Source: Allobosea sp. BH3
GTDB lineage: Bacteria > Pseudomonadota > Alphaproteobacteria > Rhizobiales > Beijerinckiaceae
NCBI RefSeq assembly: GCF_025499465.1
Contig: NZ_JAIMCA010000002.1
Coordinates: forward strand, 558,001-622,000
Length of the DNA: 64,000 nt
Reading direction: 5' to 3'
Shown: in pieces, positions 1,317 through 59,645 of the stretch
Numbering within the stretch: the first letter of the stretch is position 1
How the letters are laid out: each line of letters begins with the position of its first letter
The notes under the pieces: generated by a model
Database searches by the model: none
What the model was told of the DNA's origin: nothing
The model's input: only the letters and a program-made list of their open reading frames with translations
Position numbers and translations under genes: made by a program

Positions 1317-2549
1317 ATGGCCGACACCAGCGTGAAGAAGGTCGTCCTTGCCTATTCAGGCGGACTCGACACCTCGATCATCCTCAAATGGCTGCAGACC
1401 ACCTATCGATGCGAGGTCGTGACCTTCACCGCCGATCTCGGGCAGGGCGAGGAACTGGGCCCGGCGCGCGACAAGGCGCTGCTGCTCGGCATCAAGCCCG
1501 AGAACATCTTCATCGAGGATCTGCGCGAGGAATTCGTGCGGGACTACGTCTTCCCGATGTTCCGCGCCAATGCCGCCTATGAGGGCGTCTATCTGCTCGG
1601 CACCTCGATCGCGCGTCCGCTGATCGCCCAGAAGCTGATCGAGATCGCCGAGAAGACCGGCGCCGACGCCGTCTCCCACGGCGCGACCGGCAAGGGCAAC
1701 GACCAGGTCCGCTTCGAGCTCACCGCCTATGCGCTGAAGCCCGACGTCCATGTGATCGCGCCCTGGCGCGAGTGGGACCTGCGCTCGCGCGAGCAGCTCA
1801 TCGCCTTCGCCGAGCAGCACCAGATCCCGATCGCCAAGAACAAGCGCGGCGAGGCGCCTTTCTCCGTCGACGCCAACCTGCTGCACGCCTCGTCGGAAGG
1901 GCGCGTGCTGGAGGACCCGGCGGTCGAAGTTCCGGACTACGTCTATTCCCGTACGATCTCGCCGGAGGACGCGCCTGATACCCCGACCATCGTCACGGTG
2001 TCCTTCGAGAAGGGCGACGCGGTCGCGATCGACGGCGTGAAGCTCTCGCCGGCCACGCTGCTCGCGAAGCTCAACGATCTCGGCCGCGACAACGGTATCG
2101 GCCGGCTCGACCTCGTCGAGAACCGCTTCGTCGGCATGAAGAGCCGCGGCATGTACGAGACGCCCGGCGGCACGATCCTGCATGCGGCGCATCGCGCCAT
2201 CGAGTCGATCACGCTCGACCGCGGCGCGGCCCATCTCAAGGACCAGATCATGCCGCAATACGCCGAGCTGATCTATAACGGCTTCTGGTTCTCGCCGGAG
2301 CGCGAGATGCTGCAGGCGCTGATCGACAAGAGCCAGGAATTCGTGACCGGCGATGTCCGCCTCAAGCTCTACAAGGGCGGCGTCCATGTCATCGGCCGGT
2401 CCAGCGACTACTCGCTCTACGACCAGGACCTCGTCACCTTCGAGGAAGGTGCGGTCGCCTACGACCACCGCGACGCGGCCGGCTTCATCAAGCTCAACGC
2501 GCTGCGCCTGCGCACGCTCGGGCAGAGGAAGAAGAAGCTGGGGCTCTGA
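1317..2549 (+). CDS. argG: Argininosuccinate synthase
   Basis: A 410-residue cytoplasmic enzyme that joins citrulline and aspartate, using ATP, to make argininosuccinate in arginine synthesis. The N-terminal YSGGLDTS is the PP-loop ATP pyrophosphatase motif, and the length and sequence match type I ArgG throughout. I place the start at the ATG at 1317 ([10 protein letters not shown]): AGGAAA lies nine bases upstream, whereas the TTG at 1308 would overlap that site. The gene stands alone. The 3' end is followed within 13 bases by a REP-like palindrome that may act as its terminator. Confidence 0.97.
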
Positions 2550-2561
2550 CGCCCGCCGTCA

Positions 2562-2606
2562 TCCCGTGCGCGCTGCGGCATGCAGTGCCGCTGCGCAGAC
2601 ACGGGA
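2562..2606. repeat. Left 45-bp REP-like inverted repeat flanking the GIY-YIG gene
   Basis: This element matches the reverse complement of 2961-3005 at 42 of 45 positions, and the three differences all fall in the central loop. The element is itself an imperfect hairpin: CCCGTG..GCGC.GCGGCA pairs with TGCCGC.GCGC..CACGGG. It begins 13 bases after the argG stop and may also terminate argG transcription. Confidence 0.8.
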
Positions 2607-2629
2607 TCGCCTGACGACAAAGGCTCCGA

Positions 2630-2914
2630 TCACCCGGCGAGGTCAGACCACGCCGGGTTTTCCTTTTCTATCAACGCGACTTTCCACGCGCGGCGCCATT
2701 TCTTGAGAACCTTCTCGCGCTCGATCGCCTGGTTTGGCTCGTCGAACGTCTCGACATAGACAAGTTGGTCGATGTTGTACTTGGCTGCGTGTCCCTTGAT
2801 CGCGTGGCTTTTATGCTCGGCGATCCGGCGCTCGATGTCATTGGTAATGCCGATATAGAGCGGACCGTCCTTGCGCGTCGCGAGGATATAGACGGCATAG
2901 ATGCGAGCGGTCAT
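2630..2914 (-). CDS. Stand-alone GIY-YIG endonuclease domain protein
   Basis: A 94-residue protein made of a single GIY-YIG nuclease fold, as in the UPF0213/YhbQ group. Visible motifs are VYIL (GIY position), YIG about 15 residues later, the arginine-rich DIERRIAEHK helix, and the downstream Glu in NQAIEREKVLKKW that would bind metal. I chose the ATG at 2914 (MTARIYAVYIL); the open frame continues upstream to 3058 but there it only translates the right-hand repeat. Such proteins cut DNA in other families, but the role of the small stand-alone versions is largely unknown. It is the only gene between the inverted repeats at 2562-2606 and 2961-3005, which suggests that gene and repeats form one unit. 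Confidence 0.85.
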   Translation of the reverse strand: MTARIYAVYILATRKDGPLYIGITNDIERRIAEHKSHAIKGHAAKYNIDQLVYVETFDEPNQAIEREKVLKKWRRAWKVALIEKENPAWSDLAG

Positions 2915-2960
2915 GCAGATCTCGGGGAGAGGGCGAGACAGTACCCTATCCGGTTGGCGG

Positions 2961-3005
2961 TCCCGTGTCTGCGCAGCGGCACTTCGCGCCGCAGCGCGCA
3001 CGGGA
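2961..3005. repeat. Right 45-bp REP-like inverted repeat flanking the GIY-YIG gene
   Basis: Inverted partner of 2562-2606, with 42 of 45 bases identical after reverse complementing. It lies 46 bases upstream of the chosen GIY-YIG start, so it could also shape the leader of that transcript. Confidence 0.8.
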
Positions 3006-3085
3006 AGACACCCTTGATGAGCCTTCATGAACCGCGGGCCTGCTCGCGCGTTCAGCACTCACCGGTCAATGTGAGTGCCCCGCGC

Positions 3086-3436
3086 ATGCTTCGCTTCGTC
3101 CCCCCTGCCCTGATCGTCGCAGCACTCTGCGCGCCCGCTTTCGCGCAGCAGGTCCCACCGAAGAGCGAGAAGCCGGCGACGCCGGAGATCGCGACATGCA
3201 AGGCGGCCGCGCTTCAGACGCTCCACGCGAAGGAGCCGGAGATCAAGGACATCTACATCGACGAGGACGGCGCGACGGTCGCCGTGTCGGAAACCAAGAT
3301 CGAAGACATCCCGGTGACGCGCATCGTGATGGGCGAGGCCTATCTGCGAACCGACCGCTCGGACAAGCCCCGTCGCTTCCTCTGCCTGCTCGGCGAGAAG
3401 AGCAAGGTGCTGCTGACCTTCTTCACGGTGCGGTAG
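3086..3436 (+). CDS. Secreted hypothetical protein
   Basis: A 116-residue protein. MLRFVPPALIVAALCAPAFAQ is a clear Sec signal peptide with cleavage after Ala-Phe-Ala, about residue 20. The mature part has two cysteines (in IATCKAAAL and RRFLCLLGE) and reads like a small periplasmic alpha/beta domain ending at TFFTVR. I do not recognise a named family. The frame is open further upstream, but the signal peptide fixes the start at 3086; a GTG at 3071 would be the nearest alternative. It converges with the DUF2188 gene and has no partner genes. Confidence 0.7.
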   Translation: MLRFVPPALIVAALCAPAFAQQVPPKSEKPATPEIATCKAAALQTLHAKEPEIKDIYIDEDGATVAVSETKIEDIPVTRIVMGEAYLRTDRSDKPRRFLCLLGEKSKVLLTFFTVR

Positions 3437-29398: not shown

Positions 29399-32139
<2,741 letters not shown>

Positions 32140-55901: not shown

Positions 55902-56954
55902 TCATGCTGAGGGAGCGTCCAGACTTTGGCCGCGCAAGGCGTCCCAGGTCCGCGGCAGGGCTGCGAGAGGGGCGAGCGTGTCGATCTCGGCGGCGCGGTG
56001 GCAGCGGGCCTGCCGTCCGACGTCGATGCTCGTCAGCGGAGGCGGCTCGGCGTGGCAGCGCAGCAGCGCGAAGGGACAGCGGGCGGCGAAGCGGCAGCCG
56101 GCCGGCGGATCGACGAGATCGGGCGGCCCGCCCGGGATGGCGATCGGCTCTTCACGGCTGCCGAGCCGCGGCAGGGCATTCTTGAGCCCGAGCGTGTAGG
56201 GATGGGCCGGCCGGCGGATCACGTCCCGCGTCGGCCCCGTCTCGACGATCATGCCGGCATACATCACCGCCACCCGCTCACAGTTCTCGATGACGAGGGC
56301 GAGGTCATGCGTCACCAGCAGCAGAGAGAAGCCGAGCCGCTGCTGGAGTTCGCGCAGGCTGCGGAAGATCTGGTCCTGCACCACGACGTCGAGCGCGGTC
56401 GTCGGCTCGTCGGCGAGCACGAGCGGCGGCTCCAGCGCCAGCGCCATGGCGATGATGGCCCGCTGGCGCATGCCGCCCGAGAACTGGTGCGGAAAATCGC
56501 GCGCCCGCTCGGGTGCGACGCCGACCATGGCGAGCAGCGCTTGCGTGCGGCGCCAGGCTTCCGCGCGCGATACATCGCGGTGCGCGAGGATCGCCTCCGC
56601 GATCTGGTCGCCGACGCTGAGCACGGGGTTGAGGGCATTGAGCGCGCTCTGCGTCACCATCGAGATGCCGGCCCAGCGCACGGCGCGCCGCTGTTCCGCG
56701 GTGGCCGAGACGAGGTCTCGCCCCTGGAAGGCGATGCTGCCGGCATCGATGCGGGCATTGCCCGGCATCACGCCCATCACGGTCTTCAGCAAGGTGCTCT
56801 TGCCGCAACCGGACTCGCCGATCAGCCCGAGATTTTCGCCCTTCCCGAGATCGAGGTCGATCTCGGACAGCGCGCTGGCTCGCCCGCGCTGCGTGGAATA
56901 GCTCGCCGAAAGCCCGGAGATCGACAGGAGGGAATGGGAGCCGCTGGCGTCCAT
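55902..56954 (-). CDS. Peptide-type ABC transporter ATPase (DppD-like)
   Basis: A 350-residue ATPase: Walker [25 protein letters not shown], signature FSGGMRQR, Walker [14 protein letters not shown]-loop [10 protein letters not shown]. The C-terminal oligopeptide-transporter domain has the cysteine pattern [15 protein letters not shown], common in this family and possibly an iron-sulfur or structural site. It is the fifth gene of the operon and starts four bases after the DppC-like stop. Confidence 0.92.
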
Positions 56955-56958
56955 GGCT

Positions 56959-57822
56959 CTAGCCCATCCTCAGGCGCGGATTGACGACCTGCTCATAGGC
57001 GCGGCCGACGAAATAGACGGCCGAAACGAGGAGCATGATCGCAATGCCCGGCGGCACCACCCACCAGGGCGCGCGATACATCATCTGCGAGGCGTAGGCG
57101 TCGTAGACGATGGAGCCCCAGCTCACCACGGACGGGTCGCCGAAGCCGAGAAAGCCGATGCTGGCCTCGGTGATGATCGCCCAGGCTAGCGCGAAGGCGA
57201 CGCTGACCAGCGCGATCGGCATGATGTTGGGCGCGATCTCGCGGTAGATGATGGCGAAGTCGCTCGCTCCGGTGATCCGGGCCGCCGCCACGAACGGCAT
57301 CTCGCGCAGCGACAGGACCTGCGCGCGCACCACCCGCGCCGTCGAGCGCCACATCACCAGCGTCATGGCGATGACCATAGTCGTCAGGCTGCGGCCGGTG
57401 AGCGAGAGCACGATGATGATGAAGGGCAGGAAGGGCAGCCCGAGGAACATGTCGGTCAGCCGCATCAGGAAGGAGTCGATCCGGCCGCCGAAATAGCCGG
57501 AGATCAGCCCGATATTGACGCCGATCAGTACGGTGCCGAGCGCCGTCAGCCCGCCGACGAGCAGGGCCGGCCTTGCACCGACCAGGATCTGGCTGAAGAC
57601 GTCGCGGCCGAGCAGCGTGGTGCCGAGCCAGTGCTGCCAGGAGGGCGGCGCCAGCCGCAGCAGCTTGCCGGCAGCGTCGTAGTTGCGCGCGACGGGATCG
57701 TAAGGCGCGATCGCCGGGCCCAGGACGGCCAGCGCGACGCAAATCGCGAGGATCACCAGGCCTGTGGGGCCGAAGGGACCGCGCCAGACTGCGCGAAAGA
57801 AGTCGAGGATGATCGCAGCCAT
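56959..57822 (-). CDS. Peptide-type ABC transporter permease (DppC-like)
   Basis: A 287-residue permease with six predicted spans. The N-terminal block [20 protein letters not shown] and [19 protein letters not shown] are DppC hallmarks. The EAA loop is [22 protein letters not shown]. It is two bases from the DppB-like gene and forms the channel with it. Confidence 0.92.
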
Positions 57823-57824
57823 GG

Positions 57825-58796
57825 TCAGTCGTAGACGATGCGTGGGTCGAGCAGACCGTAGAGCAGGTCCGCGACGAAGGTGCCGAGCACGGTCAGCAGC
57901 GCGATGAGCAGGAAGGCGGCCTGCGCGACCGGATAATCAGCGCGACTGATGGCCTCGATCATCAGCAGGCCGAGCCCGGGCCAGGAGAACACCGTCTCGA
58001 TCACCACCGAGCCGGCCACGGCCCAGCCGAGGATCATCGGCAGCGTCGTGGCCAGCGGCAGCAGCGCGTTGCGGGCGGCATGCCTGAAGAGGACGCGGCG
58101 CTCGCTCAGCCCCTTCATGCGGGCGAGTTCGATATAATCCTCGCCGATGGTCGACAGCATGGTCGAGCGCATCAGCAGCAGCGGAAAGCAGAGCTGGTAG
58201 AGCGTGTTGACCAGGAAGGGCAGCGCCAGATGGTGCAAGAAGTCGAGCGATAGGTACATCCGCCAGTCCTGCTCCGGGAAAAGGCCAGGCGTGACGATGT
58301 GGCCGATCGGGAACAGGTCGAGCTTGATCGAGAACAGCAGGATGGCGAGCATGCTGAGCCAGAACAGCGGCGCCGATTGCAGCGCGGTCGCGGTCAGCAC
58401 GACGCTGACTTCCGCGCCGCCGCCGCGCTTCCATGCGGCCATCGCCCCGATGACCGCGCCGATCAGATAGGCGGCGAGCATGGAGGGAAGGATCAGCAAA
58501 AGCGTGTTGAGGAGCCGGCCCTGGATCATCTCGAAGACCGGCCGGTTGGTCTGAAACGAGAAACCGAAATCGAGGACGCAGAGATTGCGCAGATAGAGCA
58601 GGTATTGCTCGAAGAGCGGCCGATCGAGCCCGAACTGCTGCCGCATCGCCTCCTGCGCCTTCGGATAGAGCGAAGGGCTGATCACGGTCGCGGTCGGGTC
58701 ACCGGGCAGCAGCCGGAACAGGAAGAACATCAGCGTCGCCATCGCGAACAGCGTCAGAACCATGTGCCCGAGGCGGCGAACGAGATAGCTGGCCAT
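57825..58796 (-). CDS. Peptide-type ABC transporter permease (DppB-like)
   Basis: A 323-residue permease that begins MASYLVRRLGHMVLTLFAMA and has the DppB block LFRLLPGDPTATVI. The EAA-like loop is YIELARMKGLSERRVLFRHAARN. The long periplasmic loop after the first span is usual. It starts three bases after the DppF-like ATPase stop. Confidence 0.92.
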   Translation of the reverse strand: MASYLVRRLGHMVLTLFAMATLMFFLFRLLPGDPTATVISPSLYPKAQEAMRQQFGLDRPLFEQYLLYLRNLCVLDFGFSFQTNRPVFEMIQGRLLNTLLLILPSMLAAYLIGAVIGAMAAWKRGGGAEVSVVLTATALQSAPLFWLSMLAILLFSIKLDLFPIGHIVTPGLFPEQDWRMYLSLDFLHHLALPFLVNTLYQLCFPLLLMRSTMLSTIGEDYIELARMKGLSERRVLFRHAARNALLPLATTLPMILGWAVAGSVVIETVFSWPGLGLLMIEAISRADYPVAQAAFLLIALLTVLGTFVADLLYGLLDPRIVYD

Positions 58797-58799
58797 GGC

Positions 58800-59645
58800 T
58801 CAAACCACCGCCTGCGTGGTACCGGGGAGCGGGCCCCGCACGACATCGGGATCGGCGGAAGGGATGGCGGCGATCAGGGCGCGCGTATAGGCATCGCTCG
58901 GCGCCGACAGAACCTCCTCGACCGGGCCGGTCTCGACGATACGGCCGCGATGCATGATCGCCAGCCGATCGCAGACCGCGCCGACGGTGGCGAGGTCGTG
59001 GGTGATGTAGAGCATCGCGATGCCGCGCTGGCGGGCGAGGCGCTTGAGCAACCGCACGATGTCCCATTTGATCGAGACGTCGAGCATCGAGACCGGCTCG
59101 TCGGCGACGAGAAAGCGCGGCTCGAGGATGATCGCGCGGGCGATGCAGACACGCTGGCGCTGGCCGCCGCTGAGCTGGTGCGGGTGCTGGTCGAGATAGC
59201 TATCGGCCGGGTTGAGACCGACCTCGGCCAGGACGGCGCGCACGCTCTTGGCGATGGCCACGCGGTCGCGCACGCCCTGATAGAACAACGGTCGTCCGAC
59301 AAGCTCCTCGACCGTGTGCTGCGGGTTGAGAGCCCCGTACGGGTCCTGGAAGATCATCTGCACCTGGCGGTGGAAGGCCTTCTTGTCCCGGGCGCGCGCC
59401 GCTGCGCTGTCAATGCCTTCGATCAGGATCGTGCCTGCGCTCGGCGTCTCCAGCCCGACGAGCAGGCGACCGGTGGTCGACTTGCCGCTGCCGGATTCGC
59501 CGACGAGACCCAGGACCTCGCCGGCGCCGATCCGGAAGCTGACTCCGTCGACCGCCCGCGTCACCTCGCCTCGCCGGCCGGGCAGCAGCGAGCGCAGCCC
59601 GGCGGACGCCGCATAGTGCTTGGTCAGATTCCTGACGTCGATCAT
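58800..59645 (-). CDS. Peptide-type ABC transporter ATPase (DppF-like)
   Basis: A 281-residue ATPase: Walker A VGESGSGKST, FQDPYGALNPQHTV, signature LSGGQRQR, Walker B FLVADEPVSMLD and H-loop ITHDLATVG. It is shorter than most DppF proteins because the C-terminal oligopeptide domain is brief. It is the second gene, after the binding protein, from which an intercistronic hairpin separates it. Confidence 0.9.
   Translation of the reverse strand: MIDVRNLTKHYAASAGLRSLLPGRRGEVTRAVDGVSFRIGAGEVLGLVGESGSGKSTTGRLLVGLETPSAGTILIEGIDSAAARARDKKAFHRQVQMIFQDPYGALNPQHTVEELVGRPLFYQGVRDRVAIAKSVRAVLAEVGLNPADSYLDQHPHQLSGGQRQRVCIARAIILEPRFLVADEPVSMLDVSIKWDIVRLLKRLARQRGIAMLYITHDLATVGAVCDRLAIMHRGRIVETGPVEEVLSAPSDAYTRALIAAIPSADPDVVRGPLPGTTQAVV

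Follow-up and report, generated by a model that had tools for sequence, protein, structure and literature searches.

Repetitive extragenic palindromes (REPs) of bacteria have been split into two super-families, GTAG and CGTC (Di Nocera, De Gregorio and Rocco 2013, PMC3733652). The CGTC REPs are found in at least five bacterial phyla, mainly in alpha-Proteobacteria, and include dRS3 of Neisseria; their families 1–4 have a stem of 8–9 bp, a loop of 4–5 nt and, in most cases, a CCA tail. The paper describes CGTC REPs as having no transposase of their own, leaves their mover open and does not mention GIY-YIG. REP-associated tyrosine transposases (RAYTs) are, according to Bertels and Rainey (2011, PMC3116915), encoded by single-copy genes, each distinctive and flanked by its own REPs, and inverted doublets (REP doublets forming hairpins, REPINs) are the proposed mobile unit of this system. 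Here, we analyse a locus in a 64-kb stretch of the Allobosea sp. BH3 genome (hereafter the window), where a stand-alone GIY-YIG gene downstream of argG is enclosed by two inverted CGTC-type REPs (class A). Our preferred reading, to which we give a probability of about 0.65, is that of a REPtron-like locus, i.e., an enclosed nuclease that would recognise and disperse its own CGTC REPs.

The locus resembles both systems. With the CGTC REPs, class A shares a CGTC or TGTC tag beside an imperfect palindrome, a predominance of head-to-head dimers and the coexistence of different families in some genomes, but at about 53 nt, with two stems stacked on each other, it exceeds the published size, and it lacks the CCA tail; because of this stem length and tail, we do not file it in CGTC families 1–4. 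With RAYTs and REPINs, it shares one gene copy for each class, bordered by REPs of that class, dispersed inverted doublets, several distinct genes per genome, each apparently with its own REP class, and a gene phylogeny that largely tracks the species. However, RAYTs have a Y1 (HUH) transposase domain and a GTAG tag, whereas a GIY-YIG nuclease domain and a GTC tag are found here, and in comparison with REPINs our doublets are known from presence/absence between species. Among the publications listed by a search of the full-text literature, judged mostly from titles and abstract openings, none was seen to tie GIY-YIG to REPs; papers naming GIY-YIG along with RAYT or REPIN were judged unrelated from the listing and, in the one on Moraxella, the two are separate entries of a gene table.

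The nuclease gene and its class-A repeats

The two 45-nt arms (2562–2606 and 2961–3005) are inverted copies identical at 42/45 positions, the three mismatches (arm positions 19, 20 and 22) all lying in the hairpin loop, and the inverted match stretches to 54 nt (2558–2611 and 2956–3009, 49/54 identical). They are the first-listed of 38 inverted pairs in the window. The sole gene recognised between them is an open reading frame of 94 codons (2630–2914, minus strand) that matches the Pfam family GIY-YIG (PF01541) with 61.5 bits, for a cut-off of 22.6. The 45-nt arms, the confinement of their differences to the loop and the single 94-residue gene had been described by the sequence-only reading that preceded this analysis and are confirmed. 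When folded as single-stranded DNA, the left arm reaches −23.7 kcal/mol (z −5.4; none of 200 shuffles equals it), and the tags, CGTC in the left arm and TGTC in the right arm, are unpaired at one end of the palindrome. The unit consists of the following features (dN/dS: ratio of nonsynonymous to synonymous divergence):

2557–2609, plus strand: left REP element, class A, a CGTC-tagged imperfect palindrome
2610–2635, no strand: inner-left stretch, overlapping the end of the gene and resembling the start of the doublet spacer, usually of 29 nt
2630–2914, minus strand: predicted GIY-YIG nuclease gene, 94 amino acids plus stop; subfamily median dN/dS 0.11
2958–3010, minus strand: right REP element, class A, inverted copy, TGTC-tagged

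By its domain match and conserved residues, the 94-residue protein belongs to the GIY-YIG superfamily and is a predicted nuclease. An alignment of 16 sequences from the genus has 19 invariant residues and a wider one of 34 sequences has 18, both sets including Y9, Y20, G22, R30, H34, E67 and N86, among which we take the catalytic set to be. No NCBIfam model matches at its cut-off (TIGR01453 does so below it), two further Pfam families are matched at sub-threshold level, and the PHROG matches, to GIY-YIG homing endonucleases, are weak. The nearest proteins by sequence are UPF0213 proteins. The predicted model (mean local confidence, pLDDT, 89; global template-modelling score, pTM, 0.81) has as its nearest folds UPF0213 BH0048 (Foldseek E 2.5e-4) and Slx1. 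The stand-alone UPF0213 proteins of solved structure (1zg2 and 1ywl) share its domain size and fold, the sequence match to 1zg2 being at E 5e-11 and the fold match at a template-modelling (TM) score of 0.59, and the structures returned are named only as hypothetical proteins. Slx1, a branched-DNA nuclease according to the entry titles, shares the GIY-YIG fold (TM 0.60 on the query) but at a Foldseek E of 0.011; it differs by chains of 249–298 residues among the matches listed, mostly solved with Slx4, and by weak sequence similarity (E 0.024 to 1.1).

In its own genome (5.25 Mb in 14 contigs), the class-A element has 29 matches at E of about 1e-6 or better. Seventeen sites were read. Head-to-head doublets without a gene make up 14 of them; the remaining three are a hybrid doublet, a lone element and the unit of the window, which is the only one of the 17 with a gene. 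Doublets are 129–134 bp long in nine of the 12 measured and 161–172 bp in the other three, with spacers of 25–30 nt in 11 of 14 and 57–68 nt in three. Two inverted REPs, a short spacer and dispersal within one genome are the marks of a REPIN, and the class-A doublets have all of them. Their spacers resemble the inner-left flank of the gene (mean best identity over 18 nt 0.54, against 0.39 for shuffled spacers, in 10 class-A units or remnants) and, with a smaller difference (0.48 against 0.41), also the inner-right flank; the compared pairs are not independent. In the hybrid doublet (L003, at C2:31972), the left arm is a different CGTC-type repeat and the right arm a class-A element.

The class-A hairpin is maintained by compensatory change. 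Across an alignment of 24 of the approximately 32 elements of the genome, evaluated by five measures against 500 shuffles, 95.8% of the cells are paired; 31 cells are changed on both sides, for 10.9 in shuffles, and the covariation score is 0.243, for 0.142, neither value being reached in any of the 500 shuffles, and sliding the pairing partner abolishes the signal. Its 19 base pairs form two helices, and YCG is the end of most elements. GTC is invariant in the 24 elements, and at the first two stem positions, both of which hold complementary AT by the definition of CGTC REPs, position 2 is paired in 24/24 and position 1 in 10/24.

The Y1 transposase domain that marks RAYTs (PF01797) has no match in this genome at E ≤ 10, and across the genus a RAYT domain occurs in six of 41 genomes, 35 being without it. 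The genome carries two GIY-YIG nucleases, of classes A and E1, and the second has its own dispersed repeat (at least 46 matches at E of about 1e-6 or better, 40 of 195 candidates having been scored). At least 25 repeat matches of class B/C at E ≤ 1e-6 are also present, yet there is no B or C nuclease. Within positions 2300–3300 of the window no Rfam family was matched, and PADLOC gave a single weak match (UzuA, E 0.002). Elsewhere in the window, 29732–31162 and 56343–59543 are similar repeated stretches, perhaps paralogous ABC-transporter ATPase genes.

Enclosure and repeat matching in the genus and beyond

Among 41 congeneric genomes, 36 have homologues of the nuclease (E ≤ 1e-4), with at most seven matches each, fragments included. 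After dropping four duplicate loci, 92 matches were kept; 84 of them cover the full length, including 76 intact genes. A gene was considered enclosed when an inverted pair scoring ≥20 (or ≥16) lay within 350 bp of it, which holds for 59/84 full-length genes at ≥20 and 62/84 at ≥16. At score ≥20, the controls gave 2/505 for random 282-bp segments of the fetched regions and 7/295 for neighbouring genes (from 59 of the regions). In a scan across phyla with one genome per species, at least 592 stretches were recovered, 572 of them encoding a relative; the best 80, thus those most like the class-F query, were used. They come from records titled Proteobacteria, Planctomycetota, Chloroflexi, Nitrospirae, Elusimicrobia and others, and two are cut by contig ends, leaving 78 scored loci. 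Enclosure recurs in 46/78 of these at ≥20 and in 52/78 at ≥16, with GTCAT at an outer end in 33 of the 52 (controls: 1/338 random segments of the same loci, and 6/304 neighbouring genes at ≥20). Enclosure of GIY-YIG genes is thus far above chance, the neighbouring genes being enclosed about 30 times less often (2.4% vs. 70% in the genus, 2.0% vs. 59% across phyla).

The repeats themselves vary by nuclease subfamily, yet in the examples read they start with GTC, which adjoins the stem, and CCA tails occur in the class-E2 and class-F repeats of the genus (examples read). Specificity was assessed at score 16 in the 25 genomes with at least two genes by comparing opposite gene sides only, which needs no classification of the repeats and to which shared synteny cannot contribute. 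The left arm of a nuclease matches its own right arm in 54 of 73 genes, and the right arm of another nuclease of the same genome in 26 of 344 comparisons. Moreover, the own arm is the best match in 47 of the 54, and in the other seven the best partner belongs to the same subfamily or to a close relative of it. Across genomes, arms match in 501/722 comparisons within subfamilies vs. 190/5130 between them, and 180 of these 190 fall in the related pairs B–C, D–Dnone and E1–E2. Judging from these matches, each nuclease subfamily appears to carry its own repeat class. The sequence-only reading had proposed that a GIY-YIG protein and its own palindromes form a pair comparable to RAYT/REP but with a different nuclease, and the recurrence of the arrangement with different palindromes per subfamily supports this. 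A tandem duplication of a class-F nuclease unit with its repeats was also encountered (L108, 4410–5151, genome G040).

At the class level, matches at E ≤ 1e-12 were detected in 51 of the 144 genomes. When eight repeats from eight genomes of the class were joined in one query, those of G134, G131 and G170 were found only in their own genome among the matches listed, and the other five also matched one or two further genomes among these. One genome of another family (G145) has 10 GIY-YIG matches. In a plasmid collection, 35 records hold a relative; of the ten examined, eight reach score 16, including those of Sinorhizobium meliloti, Azospirillum lipoferum, Novosphingobium aromaticivorans and a Neisseria gonorrhoeae record. 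In four records of this collection, the GIY-YIG gene lies between CGTC repeats in organisms for which CGTC repeats are published in the 2013 paper (three by species, Neisseria by genus). The N. gonorrhoeae record, 2.2 Mb long and filed as a plasmid, has its GIY-YIG gene flanked by dRS3-like repeats (L295, 3001–3267). On the A. lipoferum plasmid AZO_p3, the unit sits between sufB and sufC (L293, 2986–3279), and on a Planktothrix plasmid the gene is located between a restriction-modification gene and DISARM drmA (L298, 3007–3291).

Fixed loci, selection and variable doublets

The neighbours of the unit, which served as markers in relatives, are:

1317–2549, plus strand: argG (argininosuccinate synthase), left neighbour and locus marker in relatives
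3086–3436, plus strand: right neighbour, a small protein with no family match above cut-off and a start judged by eye; synteny marker

The class-A subfamily is single-copy, and its gene or fragment shares both flanks, i.e., the argG locus, in 11/11 genomes, three of them with fragments. The occurrence of the 444-bp unit at several loci, anticipated by the sequence-only reading, is not supported by this result. An autonomous transposon or insertion sequence in which the 444-bp unit hops was likewise rejected, since the locus is fixed, with one copy at a place shared by 11/11 genomes, and no clear target duplication is seen at the three aligned empty doublet sites. Thirty genomes were read at the argG locus: seven have the full unit (G024 with an in-frame stop), three retain gene fragments between both repeats, one has the left repeat and an eroded right one and one a right arm; in at least five (G023, G015, G038, G020 and G035) the right-hand neighbour is kept without a class-A repeat. 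Subfamilies B to E1 also have one locus each, barring flanks that are cut by contig ends or undetected (left L044; right L086, L091 and L066). For E2, the left flank is common to 9/10 genes and the right flank to only 4/10, and the F genes are found at several places, with two small groups (of three and two) among 11.

Across eight subfamilies, median dN/dS ranges from 0.09 to 0.16 and median dS from 0.66 to 1.54, as calculated from pairs whose dS falls between 0.05 and 2 (for D, one pair); such ratios indicate purifying selection on the nuclease genes. For class A, the median synonymous divergence is 1.09, and the arms still pair (score 21–43) in 7/8 full-length units, that of G021 scoring 11. 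A fixed locus with diverging arms had been named beforehand as evidence that would speak against a nuclease–repeat pair: the locus is indeed fixed, but in all full-length units except that of G021 the arms still pair despite the divergence of the gene.

The doublets, for their part, vary in presence/absence between related species, gain not being distinguishable from loss. Seven sites were searched in eight relatives by their joined flanks, and three were aligned. Two relatives lack doublet S1; for S2, one relative has at most a few bases left and three have a reduced form; and S5 is missing from one relative and shortened in another. Searching the fetched regions de novo for empty doublet sites was less clear than the joined-flank approach and yielded poorly aligned candidates.

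Class-A repeats, for which up to 22 candidates per genome were scored, so that the counts are minimum values, were detected in 19 of the 41 genus genomes; eight of these have the full-length gene (G024 with its in-frame stop), three a fragment and eight neither. None of the 22 genomes lacking detected class-A repeats has the gene or a fragment (Fisher 8e-4 and 2e-5, uncorrected for shared ancestry). The eight gene-bearing genomes are also richer in class-A matches, with a mean of 26 vs. 12.5 (one-sided Mann-Whitney 0.004, likewise uncorrected for shared ancestry).

Dedicated partner or other explanations

Altogether, these results make the GIY-YIG protein very probably the dedicated partner enzyme of its CGTC REP class. 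We lean slightly towards a mechanism in which it would recognise the GTC tag along with the hairpin and nick there, the doublets being moved or copied via host replication and repair; recognition, cutting and dispersal driven by cutting are what we infer. Under this proposal, the single-copy gene is enclosed by the head-to-head CGTC REPs that its enzyme would recognise, and the dispersed gene-less doublets (REPIN-like) are made of the same palindromes. The enzyme would most likely bind the unpaired GTC tag and the hairpin formed by each arm in single-stranded or cruciform DNA, in a manner akin to Slx1-like GIY-YIG enzymes on branched DNA, and would nick at the hairpin base; nicking would mobilise or copy the doublet, and the nuclease gene itself would stay put.

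Several observations weigh against this reading. To our knowledge, GIY-YIG enzymes form no covalent protein–DNA link and have no joining step, so that doublet movement would need host factors, and the three aligned empty doublet sites display no evident target-site duplication or clean insertion junction. The 12 genes of subfamily Dnone are without a matching right-hand repeat (0/132), the examples read having a doublet upstream of the gene. Enclosure reaches score 16 in only 12/27 and score 20 in 10/27 of the class-level loci (30 returned, one per genome, three of them unplaceable; scored with no neighbour control), and two of the ten plasmid-collection loci fall short of score 16. Several genomes are near-identical at these loci, hence the rows are not independent. 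Of the five covariation measures, two give a weak signal: as high a value was reached in 10/500 shuffles for pairs changed on both sides and in 469/500 for further pair types. Finally, the repeats can be found without the gene. The sequence-only reading had held that repeats abundant without a GIY-YIG link would speak against the pairing, and this is partly what is seen: 8 of the 19 genomes with class-A repeats have no gene or detected fragment, including G022 with at least 34 matches, but the other 11 do have one. Likewise, class-B/C repeats occur in 35/41 genomes, often in the absence of any remaining B or C nuclease, and number at least 38 matches in G016, which has no GIY-YIG homologue at E ≤ 1e-4. 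As the class-B query also matches class C and at most 22 candidates per genome were scored, these repeats without nuclease leave a strict dependence of the repeats on the gene unsupported.

The persistence of repeats where the gene is gone also agrees with the chief rival, according to which the nuclease processes REP hairpins or cruciforms for the cell (e.g., at replication or at transcript ends), unrelated to their spread, and is kept beside its substrate. Purifying selection, fixed single-copy loci and a branched-DNA nuclease, Slx1, among the nearest folds suit such a host-serving role as well. However, the gene is frequently missing or degraded within the genus, and up to five full-length nucleases of different subfamilies coexist in one genome, each apparently tied to its own repeat class. 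Frequent loss, coexisting subfamilies and separate repeat classes are better suited by a selfish or co-evolving pair than by a general role, and we regard the host-serving role as unlikely, if worth serious attention.

At face value, the gene could also be a selfish, free-standing GIY-YIG homing gene that targets the REP doublet and invaded one, the repeats being dispersed otherwise. It does occupy the position of the doublet's spacer, and the PHROG matches and the sub-cut-off TIGR01453 match point the same way. Yet it has not spread to other doublets, each of the subfamilies A to E1 keeping to one locus, and the Allobosea sp. BH3 genome has no RAYT domain to disperse the repeats instead, which makes homing improbable. 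As for hitchhiking, in which CGTC REPs, being common beside genes, would have come to border this one by chance, these genomes do contain many such repeats, but the about thirty-fold rarer enclosure of neighbouring genes at the same loci and the matching of the two arms by nuclease subfamily leave it a negligible share of our belief.

We therefore return to the partner-enzyme reading and to what it may mean beyond this genus. A REP system with a dedicated enzyme is already known, and what would be new here is GIY-YIG as the enzyme. Whether stand-alone GIY-YIG nucleases are the missing mobilising enzymes of the CGTC REP super-family across bacteria, dRS3-like repeats included, acting by tag- and hairpin-specific cutting plus host repair, is in our judgement an even bet; the pairing makes CGTC REP mobility a directly testable question of enzyme and substrate. 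If true, there would be a second, chemically unrelated route to REP/REPIN dispersal beside the HUH RAYTs, and the RAYT/REPIN lifestyle, in which a stable gene is accompanied by many dispersed hairpins, would have arisen twice, the second time with an unrelated nuclease.
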